Of a stretch of 64,000 nucleotides of DNA, positions 47,785 to 52,905 are shown one piece after another. The notes under the pieces were generated by a model. It was not told the origin of the DNA. It saw only the letters and a list, made by a program, of their open reading frames with translations, and did not search any database. The number at the start of each line of letters is the position of its first letter. Positions within the stretch are counted from its first letter, which is position 1. Position numbers and translations under genes: made by a program. Source of the DNA: Rhodopirellula europaea 6C (GTDB lineage Bacteria > Planctomycetota > Planctomycetia > Pirellulales > Pirellulaceae); contig NZ_ANMO01000216.1 in NCBI RefSeq assembly GCF_000338295.1, positions 124,001 to 188,000 on the forward strand, written 5' to 3'.

Positions 47785-47833
47785 AAAAAGCAAGGGGATC
47801 TGCCCGCTGTCGACGTTCACGCTCAGCCTTGCT
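47785..47833 (-). terminator. Intrinsic terminator after the hydrolase gene
   Basis: On the minus strand the arms AGCAAGG (47833-47827) and CCTTGCT (47795-47789) are followed by a T-rich run (47789-47785). The first arm lies in the last codons of the hydrolase. It closes the aminotransferase/NRPS-like/hydrolase operon. Confidence 0.5.
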
Positions 47834-48797
47834 GAGCAAACTCAACCGCCCGTTCCGTCACGCGATCAACGATCTTTTTCCGGTCTTCGCAAAGAATCGC
47901 GACGTGATCCATTTCGGGATAGAAATCCACGGTGGCCTGGTCGTTCCAGCGAACACCGGGCAGCATTTCAAAGAATTGTTCGGCGTAGTTGTAAATCTCC
48001 AACGCTCCGCCGGTGTAGATCATGTGCAGTCGGCAACCGCGATCCACCAGACTCTGAAATTCCACTTCCGCAATTTCGCGAGCGGGATACTCACGCAAAT
48101 CAGATCCTATCGGCATCGTTGAGTATTCGGGACTGGAAGAGTCGGGTAGCAATTGCAGCAACCAAGCCAACGCGGAGGTTTTTCCAAGGACCCGTCGGCT
48201 CAAACGTTTCCATGCGTCCAGCGAGGCAAGTCGCGGAACGTAATGGTGTCGAATGCGGTTCCAACGAAAGCGACGCGTGGAAAATCCGCACGCATCCATC
48301 GTGATGATTCCGGATACTCGCGAATCTCTTTGTGCTGCGTGAATCGAATCGTCCGCGCCCGAACACAATCCGAAGAGGATGACGTTTTGGATGCCGTGTT
48401 GTTCTTGAAGCCAATCGATCGCTTCGCGAATTTCATCGCTGGCTCGATCGATCGAACGACCGCTGGCACCCACCGGCAAGCTTTCACCGATACCTGATAA
48501 GTCGAACCGGAAGGATGCAACGCCGCGACAACCGAGTTGGCGTGCGATGTCAACGTGCAGTCGAAATGGTCCGGCGTTGTGCAACATTCCCGGCGTGACA
48601 AAGATCACTGCCGTTTCGGCGTCGACTGGATTGGTGGTTGGATGATAGATGCCGACCAAATGATTTTGGCTACCGAAGACGACCGCTTGTTCCGCGGTGG
48701 CGTGCTCTCGTTTCGCCGCCCGCTGCTTTGACGGGACCAACGTTGGCACGATGGTGGGACTTGCGAATGAGGTCGTGGGTGTGTTGGTTGGGTTCAT
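47823..48797 (-). CDS. Alpha/beta hydrolase with Cys nucleophile elbow (exosortase-hydrolase-1-like)
   Basis: 324 residues. An N-terminal low-complexity segment of about 35 residues precedes an alpha/beta-hydrolase core: AVIFVTPGMLHNAGPFRLHV, FRFDLSGIGES, nucleophile elbow FGLCSGADD with Cys145 where most relatives have Ser, and a late EMDHVAIL holding the probable catalytic His. The GLC-x-(G/A)A elbow and the HNAGPFRLHV-like motif recall the hydrolases found with exosortase A systems. The ATG overlaps the stop of the NRPS-like gene (ATGA), so it belongs to that pathway. It may release or transfer the carrier-bound product; this is inference. Confidence 0.85.
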   Translation of the reverse strand: MNPTNTPTTSFASPTIVPTLVPSKQRAAKREHATAEQAVVFGSQNHLVGIYHPTTNPVDAETAVIFVTPGMLHNAGPFRLHVDIARQLGCRGVASFRFDLSGIGESLPVGASGRSIDRASDEIREAIDWLQEQHGIQNVILFGLCSGADDSIHAAQRDSRVSGIITMDACGFSTRRFRWNRIRHHYVPRLASLDAWKRLSRRVLGKTSALAWLLQLLPDSSSPEYSTMPIGSDLREYPAREIAEVEFQSLVDRGCRLHMIYTGGALEIYNYAEQFFEMLPGVRWNDQATVDFYPEMDHVAILCEDRKKIVDRVTERAVEFAQQG

Positions 48798-51544
48798 GAT
48801 TGCACCTCGATTGCACAGCCGGCGTCGGATTCATCGACCAAGAGTTTTGTGATGTGCCGAATCGCACCGGGTGACGAGAACGCTGACTCGTTGAGTTCGG
48901 GACGGTCCCAGCCGATTTCGTCGTCCATTTGAATGACGGAACCATTGATCAATGACTGCGGGGCATCGATTCCAGGCACCACATAATCTCGGCTGAGCAG
49001 CAACGTGGTTGCGGGATCATCCTGCGAGTCGCTCAGGTTCAACTTCAACTGGCTCAACTGTCGGCGAATGACGTGATTCAGTCGTGTGCCGTAGGCTTGG
49101 TCGATCGAACTGGATTGACGCGGTCGTGCAAAACGCATTTCATTGCTAAGTGTTTCTGAATGCAATTCATCAAGGCTTTGAAGGAATGTCTCTCCACAAA
49201 CGACGGGGTCCCAAAGCAGTTGTTGGTCAATGCCGGTAGCTGCTGAACATGCCGCCAAGGTTGCACCCAGACGAATGCCGATCAGTGAGACCGAATCAAG
49301 CTCATGTCTCTGCCGCATCCAATTCGATACATCGCGAATGTTTTTCATCATCACATGCGGCGAGGCTTCCAATGCGTTGCCGTGTGAGTTGCCCGTTCCG
49401 GCGTAATCGAAACGCAGGACATCGAAGCCTTGTTGAGCCAAATGCACCGCAAGCTGTTGCAGATTTCGATAGCTACGCGCGTACTCATGGCCATAGGCAT
49501 GGCACAGCACAACCGCTCGATTTCGTCGGGTTTGACGCGAGGGTGGCGAGTAATGAACCGCGAAAAGGTCATGTGAACCGCTCGGTAGAAAGAACGCTTC
49601 CATCACCGGCAAACGATCTCGCTGAGATTGAATCGCTGCGGTCGCTTCGTCCGCTGTCTTCGATTCGTCGCCCAACATCGCTTGAATGTGCCGTGCGGCC
49701 AATTCGATCGTCGGGTTGGCAAAAAAATCCCGGACGGGAAGTTCTAAACCCAATTGGTTCTTCAGCCGCGCGACCACCTGCGTCACCAACAATGAACTGC
49801 CGCCGAGCAGGAAGAAGTCGTCGTCGATTCCGATCTGCGGAACCTGCAGGACCGAGCTCCAAATCTCACAAAGTTGTTTCTGCAACTCCGATTGAGGCGC
49901 GACAAGGCTTTCCTCGCGGGCCACGACCGCATGACTGCTGTCCGGAAGGTTTTCACGATCAATTTTGCCGTTGATCGTTTTTGGGAAATGCTCAACGAAG
50001 ACAAATCGTGTCGGCACCATGTAGGGCGGCAGTTTCTCTCGCAGTTGTTTGGCGATTTTGGCCGCAGTCGCGGTGAGTTCGTTCGACGCTTCCTTGTCGA
50101 TGCTGTTGGCAGACAGTGCGTCTGCACCCAATCCGATATGTGCGAGCAAAGTGGTTTGCCCGTCCAGTGTTTCCGCGGTCACCAAAGCCTCTTTGACCTC
50201 GGAAATCGAAGTCAGTGCGGCTTCGATTTCTCCGGGTTCGATGCGGTACGATCCGAGTTTGATCTGATGATCGACTCGGCCGCCAAAGTCGATGTTGCCA
50301 TCGTCCATCCAGCGTGCGATGTCTCCGGTGCGATACCAGCGTTGCGTTTCACCATCTGAATCTTTGCGTTCAATGAAGGCGGCTTGTGTCAGTTCAGGCC
50401 GATTGAGATACCCGTCGGCCAACGCGGGGCCACCGATGAACAGTTGGCCGGTTTCGCCAACGGCGACTTCATTCAAGTCTTTGTCGAAGATGGCGGCGGA
50501 GTAGCCTGGCAGAGGTTTTCCGATCGGCATGTTGGCGGCAGAGAAGTCAGCTTCCGGTACGAAGACCGTCGCGGTGACGGTGGCTTCGGTCGGTCCGTAG
50601 GCGTTGCACCACAGCACGTCGTGATCGCAAATGGTTTGCCAGCGTTGATAGTGATCGACGCTCACTTTTTCTCCCGTGACAACCATCAAGCGGAGACTCG
50701 ATGGAACTTGGGAGTCGGTGGCAACCATCAAATCGACCCATTGATGCCAATAGGCGGTTGCCAAGTGGACGGCAGTGATTTGGAGCGTGTCGATCAAGTG
50801 TGAGAGTTCGTTGGCCGAATTGGCTCGTTCGAGCGGCCGTACCACGACGCAGCTGCCGCACAACAACGGTGGGAAGATCTCTTCGATTGCGATGTCGAAG
50901 GTGAGCGTTGAGAACTGCAGCGTCCGGTCGTCCGCGTGCAAGCGGTAGACTTCCATGTCCGCTTCGCAATAAGTCGTCAAAGCGGCGTGGTTGATCAACA
51001 CGCCCTTGGGATTTCCCGTCGATCCCGAGGTGTACATGACGTAGGCGAGTTGCTCGCCAGTCAGTTTGAAATAGTTTTCGCGAACCGGGAAGCTGGGCGA
51101 GATGCCATCACGGATCAGGTCCGATGCGTCTACCCACTTGAGAGTTGCGCCCGAGTTCGTCGAGCTAGTTGTGGAGTCATTGGCATCGAACAACGAACGA
51201 TATCTCGCGTGGCCGATCAGCGTTTTGATTTTCGCGTCGTCCAACATGAAACGCAGTCGCTCGGCTGGGTACTCCGGATCCAAGGGCACGAAGGCCGCGC
51301 CGGCCAGATGAATTCCCAGCATTGACGCGATGGCGATGGGGCTGCGGTCGACGCACACTCCCACTCGTTCGCCCGGCTGAACGCCGGCGGTTCGCAGTGA
51401 GTCGGCGACGTGACAAGATTGCGAGAGCAATTCGCGGTAGGTCCACGAGCAATCGTCTTGCACGACCGCAACACGGTCTGGCGTGGCTTCGCATTGTTGC
51501 CAAAACAAATCAATGAATGGCGTGATCGAATCAACCGACTTCAT
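48794..51544 (-). CDS. NRPS-like fusion: adenylation domain, carrier protein, alpha/beta hydrolase-like domain
   Basis: 916 residues. Adenylation domain (about 10-540): YTSGSTGNPKG (171-181), FDIAIEEIFPPLL, NAYGPTE (314-320), GYLNRPELT, YRTGD, GGRVDHQIKLGSYRIEPGEIE (421-441), NGKIDR (525-530). Carrier domain (about 550-625): DDDFFLLGGSSLL, with Ser584 as the expected phosphopantetheine site. The C-terminal domain (about 645-916) is alpha/beta-hydrolase-like (VLCHAYGHEYARSYRNLQQL, LRFDYAGTGNS) with elbow GIRLG, so Arg758 stands where the nucleophile normally is. There is no condensation or thioesterase domain. Hand-read specificity residues D217, I218, E221, A264, V288, T290, A315, V323, T324, K527; Glu at the third position suits a cationic amino acid. 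It overlaps both neighbours by 4 bp. Confidence 0.92.
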   Translation of the reverse strand: MKSVDSITPFIDLFWQQCEATPDRVAVVQDDCSWTYRELLSQSCHVADSLRTAGVQPGERVGVCVDRSPIAIASMLGIHLAGAAFVPLDPEYPAERLRFMLDDAKIKTLIGHARYRSLFDANDSTTSSTNSGATLKWVDASDLIRDGISPSFPVRENYFKLTGEQLAYVMYTSGSTGNPKGVLINHAALTTYCEADMEVYRLHADDRTLQFSTLTFDIAIEEIFPPLLCGSCVVVRPLERANSANELSHLIDTLQITAVHLATAYWHQWVDLMVATDSQVPSSLRLMVVTGEKVSVDHYQRWQTICDHDVLWCNAYGPTEATVTATVFVPEADFSAANMPIGKPLPGYSAAIFDKDLNEVAVGETGQLFIGGPALADGYLNRPELTQAAFIERKDSDGETQRWYRTGDIARWMDDGNIDFGGRVDHQIKLGSYRIEPGEIEAALTSISEVKEALVTAETLDGQTTLLAHIGLGADALSANSIDKEASNELTATAAKIAKQLREKLPPYMVPTRFVFVEHFPKTINGKIDRENLPDSSHAVVAREESLVAPQSELQKQLCEIWSSVLQVPQIGIDDDFFLLGGSSLLVTQVVARLKNQLGLELPVRDFFANPTIELAARHIQAMLGDESKTADEATAAIQSQRDRLPVMEAFFLPSGSHDLFAVHYSPPSRQTRRNRAVVLCHAYGHEYARSYRNLQQLAVHLAQQGFDVLRFDYAGTGNSHGNALEASPHVMMKNIRDVSNWMRQRHELDSVSLIGIRLGATLAACSAATGIDQQLLWDPVVCGETFLQSLDELHSETLSNEMRFARPRQSSSIDQAYGTRLNHVIRRQLSQLKLNLSDSQDDPATTLLLSRDYVVPGIDAPQSLINGSVIQMDDEIGWDRPELNESAFSSPGAIRHITKLLVDESDAGCAIEVQS

Positions 51545-52905
51545 GAGACCACCATCGATGAGCCAAGCGAAGCGATTGGCGATCCGGTTGATGGCACGAG
51601 TGCTGATTTGGTTCCAGAGGATTCAAGAAACACTGTTTGCAAGCTTTGTCGAAACAATTGCAGTCCTTGGCGGAGTTGTTGCTCCGGAATGTTCAGGGCC
51701 GGCATGAACTTCAAGACTTCGTCATCGCTGCCGCACGATTCCAATAGCAGCCCATTTTCAAATGCGGTGTCGATGACCATGCGAGCCAGGTCTCCTCGGC
51801 GAATGTCCAATCCCCAAATCATGCCTCGGCCGCGAAGGTCCCAATTCTCGTCCGAGTATTCCGAGATGATGGATGCCAAGTATGTTTGCAGCGTGTTGCT
51901 GCGGACTTGGATGCCATCAACGAATGAAGCATCGTTCCAGTGGTTCAAAACTGCGTTTGCCGCCACGAACGCCAAGTTGTTACCGCGGAATGTCCCGGTG
52001 TGTTGGCCCGGTTGCCAGATATCGCACTCGGGCCGAATCATTACGAGTGACAGAGGCAGACCGCCGCCGATCGATTTGGAAAGACAAATCAGGTCGGGTG
52101 ATAGCCCGGCTTTTTCGAAGCTGAAGAAGTCTCCCGTCCGGCCATTGCCAACTTGAATGTCGTCGATAATCAGCAGCACATTATGCTCGCGGCAGAGCGT
52201 TTGGACTCGTTGCAACCACGCATCGCTGGCCACGTGAATCCCGCCTTCACCTTGGATCGTCTCCAGTACAACCGCTGCGGGAAGCGGCATGCCACTGCTA
52301 CGGTCGGTCAGCATTTTTTCGAGCAAGATGGTCGTGTCGAAATCGCCAAGGTAGCCGTCGTACGGAAGAAAACTGACGTTGTTGTGCGAACCGTAGTATT
52401 CGCTGTGGTAGGTCTGGTTTCCCGTTACCGCTAATGAGCCGAGCGAATGGCCATGATACGCATTGGTGAATGCAACCACGTGAGAACGTTTGCGGTGTTG
52501 TTTGGCGAGCTTGATCGCCGCTTCGACGGCGTTTGTACCCGTTGGTCCGGTGAACTGAATCTTGTAGTCCATCGATCGCGGTTGCAGAATCGTTTGCTCA
52601 AAACACTCCAAGAACTGAGCCTTGGCCTCGGTCGTCATGTCCAACGAATGCTGGATCCCATCGCGAGAGATGTAGTCCAGCAATGCCTGCTTCACCACCG
52701 GCGGATTGTGCCCATAGTTCAGCGATCCAGCACCACAGAAGAAATCGATGAACTGACAACCTTCCGCGGTCGTCAATGTCGAGCCATTCGCTGTTTGAAA
52801 GACGCTCGGGAAGAGTCGGCAATAGCCACGCACCTCTGATTCCAAACGTTCCACGGTGTTGGTTGCTGAATCTGAAATGGATGATGAATGACTCAACCGA
52901 AACAC
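51541..52905 (-). CDS. Diaminobutyrate--2-oxoglutarate aminotransferase (EctB-type)
   Basis: 454 residues from a GTG (no strong Shine-Dalgarno). Class III PLP aminotransferase: FTGPTGTNAVEAAIKLA, NAYHGHSLGSLAVTGN, LETIQGEGGIHVAS, DDIQVGNGRTGDFFSFE (248-264) and PLP Lys277 in LSKSIGGGLPLS. WQPGQHTGTFRGNNLAFVAA closely follows EctB and other diaminobutyrate aminotransferases, which make L-2,4-diaminobutyrate from aspartate semialdehyde with glutamate as donor. EctA and EctC are absent nearby, so ectoine is not the evident product. The stop overlaps the ATG of the NRPS-like gene, which suggests that diaminobutyrate is its substrate. The C-terminal 25 residues are Ser-rich and probably disordered. 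Confidence 0.92.
   Translation of the reverse strand: MFRLSHSSSISDSATNTVERLESEVRGYCRLFPSVFQTANGSTLTTAEGCQFIDFFCGAGSLNYGHNPPVVKQALLDYISRDGIQHSLDMTTEAKAQFLECFEQTILQPRSMDYKIQFTGPTGTNAVEAAIKLAKQHRKRSHVVAFTNAYHGHSLGSLAVTGNQTYHSEYYGSHNNVSFLPYDGYLGDFDTTILLEKMLTDRSSGMPLPAAVVLETIQGEGGIHVASDAWLQRVQTLCREHNVLLIIDDIQVGNGRTGDFFSFEKAGLSPDLICLSKSIGGGLPLSLVMIRPECDIWQPGQHTGTFRGNNLAFVAANAVLNHWNDASFVDGIQVRSNTLQTYLASIISEYSDENWDLRGRGMIWGLDIRRGDLARMVIDTAFENGLLLESCGSDDEVLKFMPALNIPEQQLRQGLQLFRQSLQTVFLESSGTKSALVPSTGSPIASLGSSMVVS

Follow-up and report, generated by a model that had tools for sequence, protein, structure and literature searches.

A conserved three-gene cassette in Rhodopirellula europaea combining an EctB-type aminotransferase, an adenylation-carrier-hydrolase protein and a second hydrolase-like protein: a candidate one-module system dedicated to diaminobutyrate

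The DNA analyzed here (hereinafter, the window) is a stretch of 64,000 nucleotides from Rhodopirellula europaea 6C (contig NZ_ANMO01000216.1, positions 124,001 to 188,000), in which three minus-strand genes encode an EctB-type aminotransferase, a protein that joins an adenylation (A) domain, a carrier (T) domain and an alpha/beta-hydrolase-fold domain (H2) in one chain, and a second, separate alpha/beta-hydrolase-fold protein (H1). A preceding inspection of the letters alone, without database searches (the sequence-only reading), had described three coupled genes closed by a terminator. The coupling and the gene boundaries hold, both junctions being 4-bp ATGA overlaps, but the terminator is not supported: past gene 3, scanning of the minus strand gave no terminator-like site, the region contains 5 such sites versus 7.3 in shuffled sequences, and the sequence 3' of this gene shows no more folding than its shuffled versions (z -0.22). 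The proposed domain composition is borne out by profile matches to an EctB-type aminotransferase, to AMP-binding, PP-binding and alpha/beta-hydrolase families in a single chain, and to a second alpha/beta hydrolase. As also predicted, neither condensation nor thioesterase families are among the Pfam matches of the three genes, so the locus does not encode a complete nonribosomal peptide synthetase (NRPS). The features, in window coordinates, are as follows.

51541..52905, minus strand: gene 1, EctB-type diaminobutyrate--2-oxoglutarate aminotransferase, 454 amino acids (aa), GTG start (TIGR02407, 646.3 bits)
51541..51544, minus strand: ATGA overlap of genes 1 and 2, 4 bp, read from the sequence
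48794..51544, minus strand: gene 2, A-T-H2 protein, 916 aa
49940..51511, minus strand: adenylation domain of gene 2, profile match (TIGR01733, PF00501)
50894..50896, minus strand: codon of Asp217, pocket position 1 (alpha-amine), from pocket comparison, codon read
50882..50884, minus strand: codon of Glu221, pocket position 3 (side-chain amine), from pocket comparison, codon read
49670..49888, minus strand: carrier (T) domain of gene 2, profile match (PF00550)
49793..49795, minus strand: codon of Ser584, phosphopantetheine site, invariant in 15/15 sequences
48830..49609, minus strand: H2, alpha/beta-hydrolase-fold domain of gene 2, profile match (TIGR03101, 88.1 bits, below the cut-off of 202.75)
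49271..49273, minus strand: codon of Arg758, nucleophile elbow of H2 (GIRLG), Arg in 50/53 H2 domains
48794..48797, minus strand: ATGA overlap of genes 2 and 3, 4 bp, read from the sequence
47823..48797, minus strand: gene 3, H1, alpha/beta-hydrolase-fold protein like exosortase-A hydrolase 1, 324 aa (TIGR03100, 89.5 bits)
48363..48365, minus strand: codon of Cys145, presumed nucleophile of H1 (GLCSG), Cys in 61/61 H1 domains
47904..47906, minus strand: codon of His298, presumed catalytic His of H1, His in 18/18 cassette H1s

The arrangement is not fortuitous, as the same three-gene order recurs in 18 loci. When the gene 2 protein was searched against 396 genomes of the order, matches with an E-value of 1e-100 or better were obtained in 23; in 12 genomes these covered the A, T and H2 parts, whereas in the remaining 11 they were confined to the A-T segment of longer open frames. 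Two of the six same-genus genomes listed contain the cassette, which is found also in Rhodopirellula maiorica, Neorhodopirellula pilleata and a metagenome-assembled genome (MAG) of Granulosicoccaceae, a gammaproteobacterial family. In all 15 loci of this first set, the EctB, A-T-H2 and H1 genes are adjacent on one strand. Among 321 genomes sampled from the class to which the Granulosicoccaceae MAG belongs, 36 had a match to an H1 profile, and three of the 20 regions read from 18 of these 36 genomes (loci L132, L133 and L134 of our survey) contained the full cassette, which brings the collection to 14 planctomycete loci and four from the gammaproteobacterial sample. The conservation of gene order that the sequence-only reading had put forward as a check is thus observed, and in two loci (L006 and L035) H1 is even fused to the A-T-H2 protein. 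Other flanking genes, by comparison, are shared among only a few members of the 15-locus set, mostly close relatives. Evolutionary distances among the EctB, A, H2 and H1 parts correlate with r of 0.79 to 0.94, with none of 1000 shuffles reaching as high a value for any of the six pairs, and the tightest correlation is that between H2 and H1. For each of the four parts, the closest counterparts of L132, a locus of the gammaproteobacterial sample, are in planctomycete cassettes, so that the cassette would appear to have been transferred across phyla as one unit.

The protein encoded by gene 1 passes the EctB equivalog model TIGR02407, to which the EctB of ectoine biosynthesis also belongs (646.3 bits; cut-off 552.2). 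The sequence-only reading had noted that EctA and EctC were lacking; for EctC this is supported by the absence of any match in this genome, whereas EctA was not searched for. With the same proviso on EctA, ectoine synthesis by this genome was considered and rejected. Of the 15 genomes in the first cassette set, none contains EctC (PF06339) above the cut-off, with a single weak, below-cut-off match in G279; among the three further cassette genomes, two (G784 and G1028) do, on contigs other than that of the cassette. Each of these two EctC-like genes, which exceed the Pfam cut-off (L167, G784:C35; L168, G1028:C9), lacks an EctB gene within the 15 kb fetched around it. In a phylogenetic tree of EctB, the 18 cassette proteins lie on one side of a branch with 97/99 support that sets them apart from 12 other EctBs; such other EctBs were found in 13 genomes, 9 of which hold EctC above the cut-off. 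(The tree leaves out L152 and L155, which are copies of L133 and L008, respectively, and L164, which has an internal stop; it includes L154, despite a match that spans stops, and L166, which forms a very long branch.) According to a survey of Planctomycetota, ectA and ectB adjoin ectC in each of 23 genomes (PMC13342039); the survey started from EctC, so that EctB genes of the cassette type fall outside its scope. In the cassette, then, EctB stands apart from the ectoine pathway, a point to bear in mind wherever EctB by itself is used to predict that ectoine is made.

The adenylation domain of gene 2 scores 406.1 bits against TIGR01733 (cut-off 317.4) and is, accordingly, of the amino acid-activating, NRPS type; the carrier domain that follows matches PF00550, and its phosphopantetheine-bearing serine is the invariant Ser584 listed above. 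In all 18 cassettes, the specificity pocket reads D-I-E-x-[VIL]-T-A-V-[TS]-K, with position 4 being unsure (our script chose Thr263, whereas inspection of the alignment by eye points to Ala264). For PosA, a delta-poly-ornithine synthetase, it has been reported that the aspartate in position 1 binds the alpha-amine and the glutamate in position 3 the side-chain amine, both being essential; a serine in position 9 helps, and position 2 has been proposed to set the chain length (PMC10522769). Judging by the correspondence of Asp217 and Glu221 to these two residues, the pocket is of the diamino-acid type. Because EctB is the first gene of the cassette, the natural reading of the substrate is L-2,4-diaminobutyrate (Dab), a strong inference from these features. 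The earlier proposal that the locus makes Dab and loads it on a carrier is supported by the EctB score, the type of the pocket and the conserved gene order. Activation of a fatty acid was tried as a candidate and is disfavored by Asp217 and the TIGR01733 score, both marks of an amino acid adenylation domain. In their single diamino-acid A-T module, with Asp and Glu in pocket positions 1 and 3, PosA and epsilon-polylysine synthetase resemble gene 2; however, the C-terminal region of these synthetases has been proposed to be membrane-bound, whereas gene 2 carries a hydrolase-fold domain after the carrier. No membrane-bound region was recognized there, the segment matching alpha/beta hydrolases; no transmembrane prediction was run. 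As for arming of the carrier, a phosphopantetheinyl transferase (PPTase) gene adjoins the cassette in L041, L042 and L132 (only chosen neighbors were scanned, so more may exist), and two PPTase matches lie elsewhere in this genome.

The two hydrolase-fold components display contrasting residues at the nucleophile elbow. In H1, the elbow is a cysteine (GLCSGADD in the cassette protein), which is conserved in all 61 H1 domains compared, 18 from cassettes and 43 from other loci; the histidine near the C-terminus is kept in 18/18 cassettes. In H2, this position is occupied by an arginine in all but three of 53 domains across the surveyed loci, and these three (L089, L128 and L129) read glycine, possibly owing to misalignment. 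Histidine reaches 30% in a single column after the elbow of H2, and this column lies in the middle of the domain (14/18), not at its end. The tally dropped a second H2 fragment of L038, which lacks the elbow column, and three secondary rows (L089, L128 and L129) that are absent from the domain table. The Arg/Cys pattern extends to L144, L146 and L147, in each of which both proteins exceed the cut-offs of the exosortase-A models, so that 'hydrolase 2', true exosortase-A members included, is probably not a conventional hydrolase. In NCBIfam, hydrolases 1 and 2 of exosortase A are hypothetical equivalogs whose names carry no function. Comparison of the H1 profile with PDB by sequence yielded only ordinary alpha/beta hydrolases. 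The AlphaFold model of the natural H2-H1 fusion from L006 (predicted local distance difference test, pLDDT, 70.4; predicted template modelling score 0.48) also matched ordinary alpha/beta hydrolases and so does not separate the functional hypotheses discussed below.

The sequence-only reading had compared the cassette with the accessory genes of exosortase-A loci and had itself proposed that hydrolase scores far below the respective models would count against the comparison. For both proteins, the best NCBIfam match is indeed the corresponding exosortase-A model (H1 to TIGR03100, E-value 2.2e-25; H2, scored as the isolated C-terminal part of the gene 2 protein, to TIGR03101, E-value 6.5e-25), but the scores, 89.5 versus a cut-off of 168.45 bits and 88.1 versus 202.75 bits, respectively, are well short. 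Likewise, the ligase portion of gene 2 reaches 212 bits against TIGR03098, with a cut-off of 592.35, and so is not of the exosortase-A type. What stands of the comparison is the distant shared ancestry of the hydrolase pair; what does not is a closer affinity, given the missed cut-offs and the nearer kinship, in the H1 tree, of NRPS-linked pairs. The exosortase-A accessory set has in common with the cassette an AMP-forming ligase, a carrier protein, H2 and H1, and its members that pass the cut-offs (L144, L146 and L147) carry Arg and Cys at the same positions. The cassette differs in the three missed cut-offs, in having EctB as its pyridoxal phosphate (PLP)-dependent enzyme, in the lack of an exosortase in the locus and in the separate H1 branch; the PLP-dependent decarboxylase of the exosortase-A set is TIGR03099. 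The statement that the locus lacks an exosortase is confirmed, as the only PF09721 match in the genome is on contig C96 and the window on C216. That exosortase match (L045, G000:C96, 17702-19600) is in a 632-aa open reading frame (ORF) whose neighbors are a repeat-rich ORF of 497 aa and large ORFs resembling surface proteins, and no H1, H2 or ligase was recognized by eye in this neighborhood. One could imagine that the cassette is a diverged exosortase-A accessory set serving the exosortase on C96, in line with the E-values of about 1e-25 and the presence of one exosortase in the genome, but with all three models below cut-off, H1 on another branch and no H1, H2 or ligase near the exosortase, we consider this highly improbable. 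Membership in the exosortase-A system is rejected on the same scores, contigs and tree.

The H2-H1 pair is not confined to cassettes. Matches to TIGR03100 with an E-value of 1e-10 or better were detected in 50 of 343 Planctomycetota genomes, none above the cut-off, and regions from 20 of the 50 were read. Among plasmid records, 30 had an H1-like match; five were read with gene tables and two without (the latter entered no tally). Together with the gammaproteobacterial sample, these sources gave 42 non-cassette loci, 18 of which have an A or carrier domain within 5 kb, as seen with cassette-built profiles that are insensitive to other carriers; for scale, and not as a set of matched control loci, the 7.19 Mb of this genome hold 8 such A-domain matches. 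When small ORFs for carrier proteins were sought by motif in the vicinity of the other pairs, the search detected only that in L076 and missed annotated carriers (L128, L130 and L131), so that it provides no evidence of absence. The contexts outside cassettes are assembly lines of the NRPS or polyketide synthase (PKS) type, loci with a TIGR03098 ligase (L144) and loci with an amino acid:[carrier protein] ligase (L129-L131), which L143 and L145 resemble by eye. The ten NRPS/PKS proteins scanned beside H2-H1 pairs contain a carrier domain in 10/10 cases and a thioesterase or reductase family in 0/10, although a thioesterase could reside on another protein.

Phylogenetic analysis of 61 H1 sequences placed the six that exceed the exosortase-A cut-off in a clade with 100/100 support, and a 98/90 branch separates these from the rows that belong to cassettes, to NRPS-linked pairs and to amino acid:[carrier protein] ligase loci, the last of which group together (98/93). 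Fifteen cassettes form one clade (100/99) and L008, L133 and L134 another (100/100). The four context labels require 4 changes on this tree (minimum 3) as against 22.8 for shuffled labels; the labels were taken from gene neighbors, with L148-L151 labelled exosortase-A before scoring and L150 subsequently found below the cut-off. This topology points to NRPS-linked pairs as the nearest kin of the cassette. Such pairs (for example, L136, L135, L138 and L090) comprise an H2 with Arg and an H1 with Cys of the same kind as in the cassette, and in L135, L136 and L138, as in gene 2, H2 is fused behind the last carrier domain; they differ in having condensation or ketosynthase domains, whereas the cassette consists of one A-T module and its own EctB. 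We found no family name for H2-H1 pairs beside thioesterase-less NRPS/PKS lines. L136 (10239-15896) encodes an NRPS of two modules. Its first A domain shares the pocket code of the cassette (51% identity); a condensation domain, the other module and H2, fused to the chain, come after it, with H1 next; perhaps, this is a relative of the cassette that makes a Dab-X dipeptide.

Several plasmid-borne pairs occur in other surroundings. On the Variovorax paradoxus plasmid CP063167.1 (L127, 1-18960), genes for polysaccharide export, a tyrosine autokinase and a sugar transferase follow directly on a pair of NRPS genes and those for a PPTase, H2 and H1, which looks like an NRPS within an exopolysaccharide locus. 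The Shinella plasmid NZ_OZ000531.1 (L128) has a polysaccharide locus with an H2-H1 fusion, a carrier protein, an AMP-binding enzyme and a type III PLP enzyme, and no exosortase is among the annotated products of its 19 kb. In the Rhizobium, Azospirillum and Mycetohabitans plasmids (L129, L130 and L131, respectively) and, by eye, in L143 and L145, H2-H1 fusions end clusters that include an amino acid:[carrier protein] ligase, an acyl-CoA dehydrogenase, DUF1839 and a gene for glycoside hydrolase family 2 or beta-mannosidase.

Gene neighborhoods of this kind bear on the suggestion, made already in the sequence-only reading, that the product decorates a surface polymer: as polysaccharide is being made, H1 would acylate an amine or hydroxyl group of a sugar and so put Dab on a cell-surface glycan or glycolipid. 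Polysaccharide genes do lie beside two cassettes, with related flippase genes (49% identical) directly upstream of EctB in L008 and L133 and a polysaccharide deacetylase downstream in L133, and H2-H1 is found among polysaccharide genes on the Variovorax and Shinella plasmids, the Variovorax pair being located between the NRPS and export genes; the flippase genes and the Variovorax setting hint at a glycan in those loci. However, the planctomycete cassettes offer nothing comparable, no polysaccharide neighbor being common to all 14, and the nearness of such genes was judged without a control set for chance; we regard this possibility as rather unlikely.

Taking as the basis the gene order, domains, conserved residues and co-inheritance documented above, we propose, with a probability of about one half, that the cassette is a self-contained, one-module, NRPS-like system dedicated to Dab, in which H2 and H1 replace a thioesterase and transfer the aminoacyl unit to an acceptor. 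Under this scheme, EctB would make Dab from aspartate semialdehyde; the A domain would adenylate it and the adjacent carrier domain, armed by a PPTase encoded elsewhere in the genome, would receive it. H2, predicted to be a pseudo-hydrolase in which Arg replaces the nucleophile, would act together with H1 where a thioesterase normally does, and H1, a putative Cys/His enzyme, would accept Dab in thioester linkage to its Cys and then pass it to a nucleophile, conceivably the amine or hydroxyl group of either a small molecule or an envelope component, in the manner of CmaE, SyrC and CysB. That H1 transfers rather than hydrolyzes, with H2 as its non-catalytic partner, is suggested with moderate strength; plain hydrolysis seems unlikely because regeneration of free Dab would be a futile cycle.

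Precedents for such a transfer exist. A cysteine nucleophile in a protein of the alpha/beta-hydrolase type is the mark of CmaE, SyrC and CysB, and H1 has it in Cys145; a Cys enzyme with an Arg partner that is fused to the carrier or encoded by a gene overlapping that of the carrier would, by analogy, fit an aminoacyltransferase. We know of no fused Arg pseudo-hydrolase partner of CmaE, SyrC or CysB. CysB is described as similar to SyrC and as itself a CmaE homologue; it unloads the stand-alone module CysH and delivers the amino acid to another carrier domain (PMC7966384). CmaE is also described as moving an aminoacyl unit off a stand-alone A-T module (PMC8748450); in each case, a separate protein unloads the module, as proposed here for H1. 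The pacidamycin protein PacP (A-T-TE0), a stand-alone A-T protein with an inactive third domain devoid of the catalytic triad, resembles gene 2 in architecture (PMC8748450) but differs in that transfer to PacH is reported to be spontaneous.

The way CysB and CmaE work raises the alternative that gene 2 serves to load an NRPS located elsewhere, with H1 shuttling Dab in trans to the carrier of a larger assembly line. The genome offers a potential recipient, an A-domain match on another contig (G000:C94:79731-81431) in a 3666-aa open frame that is probably a large NRPS. The patchy spread of the cassette, which moves without an NRPS beside it, and the fused or overlapping carrier, H2 and H1 point, instead, to local use and make such shuttling improbable.

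Several observations weigh against our preferred reading, that of a dedicated system for transfer of Dab. There is no acceptor gene common to the 18 cassettes; ornithine or lysine would fit the pocket, too; the EctC-like genes in G784 and G1028 imply that EctB there may serve another use; the cassette H1s are not one clade, with the NRPS-linked L138 weakly placed beside L008, L133 and L134; H2 and H1 are usually but not always seen together, 8 of the 42 non-cassette loci having H1 with no H2 detected (L078, L079, L083, L084, L087, L088, L093 and L094); and the AlphaFold model of gene 2 (pLDDT 53.2) was too poor to be used. The missing common acceptor, in particular, together with the self-contained nature of the cassette, is compatible with a scenario in which H2-H1 releases Dab by cyclization or self-coupling, without an outside acceptor, to yield 3-aminopyrrolidin-2-one (a five-membered lactam), a Dab dipeptide or a diketopiperazine. 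From chemical considerations, a Dab thioester could, in principle, close on its own side-chain amine, and in L037 a gene of the major facilitator superfamily type is directly downstream on the same strand. Nevertheless, the lactam could arise without two dedicated proteins, and H2-H1 also operates on different cargo in loci of the NRPS, PKS and ligase types, which suggests a general role in transfer or release; we view self-coupling as unlikely.

The generality of H2-H1 tempts one to go beyond transfer of Dab by the cassette and to suggest, tentatively and with considerable doubt, that H2-H1, an Arg pseudo-hydrolase accompanied in most cases by a Cys transferase, is a general, hitherto undescribed device for offloading carrier proteins that replaces thioesterases in NRPS/PKS, exosortase-A polysaccharide and amino acid:[carrier protein] ligase loci and conjugates their cargo to an acceptor, with the cassette as its smallest natural version. 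This substitution for thioesterases may be the more interesting point, the cassette being its minimal, testable case: a three-gene system for a single amino acid in which the role of hydrolases 1 and 2 is directly accessible in vitro. If the pair does transfer carrier-bound amino acids, this would suggest both how thioesterase-less NRPS/PKS loci release their products and what the exosortase-A hydrolases do. Exact-phrase matching in open-licence PMC papers, judged by titles and the openings of abstracts, recovered no description of the cassette or of an H2-H1 release pair, which is weak evidence of novelty. An H2-H1 fusion is also present on the megaplasmid of Cupriavidus metallidurans CH34 (L171, 7615-9912), a well-studied, cultivable strain that is, possibly, useful for testing the pair.

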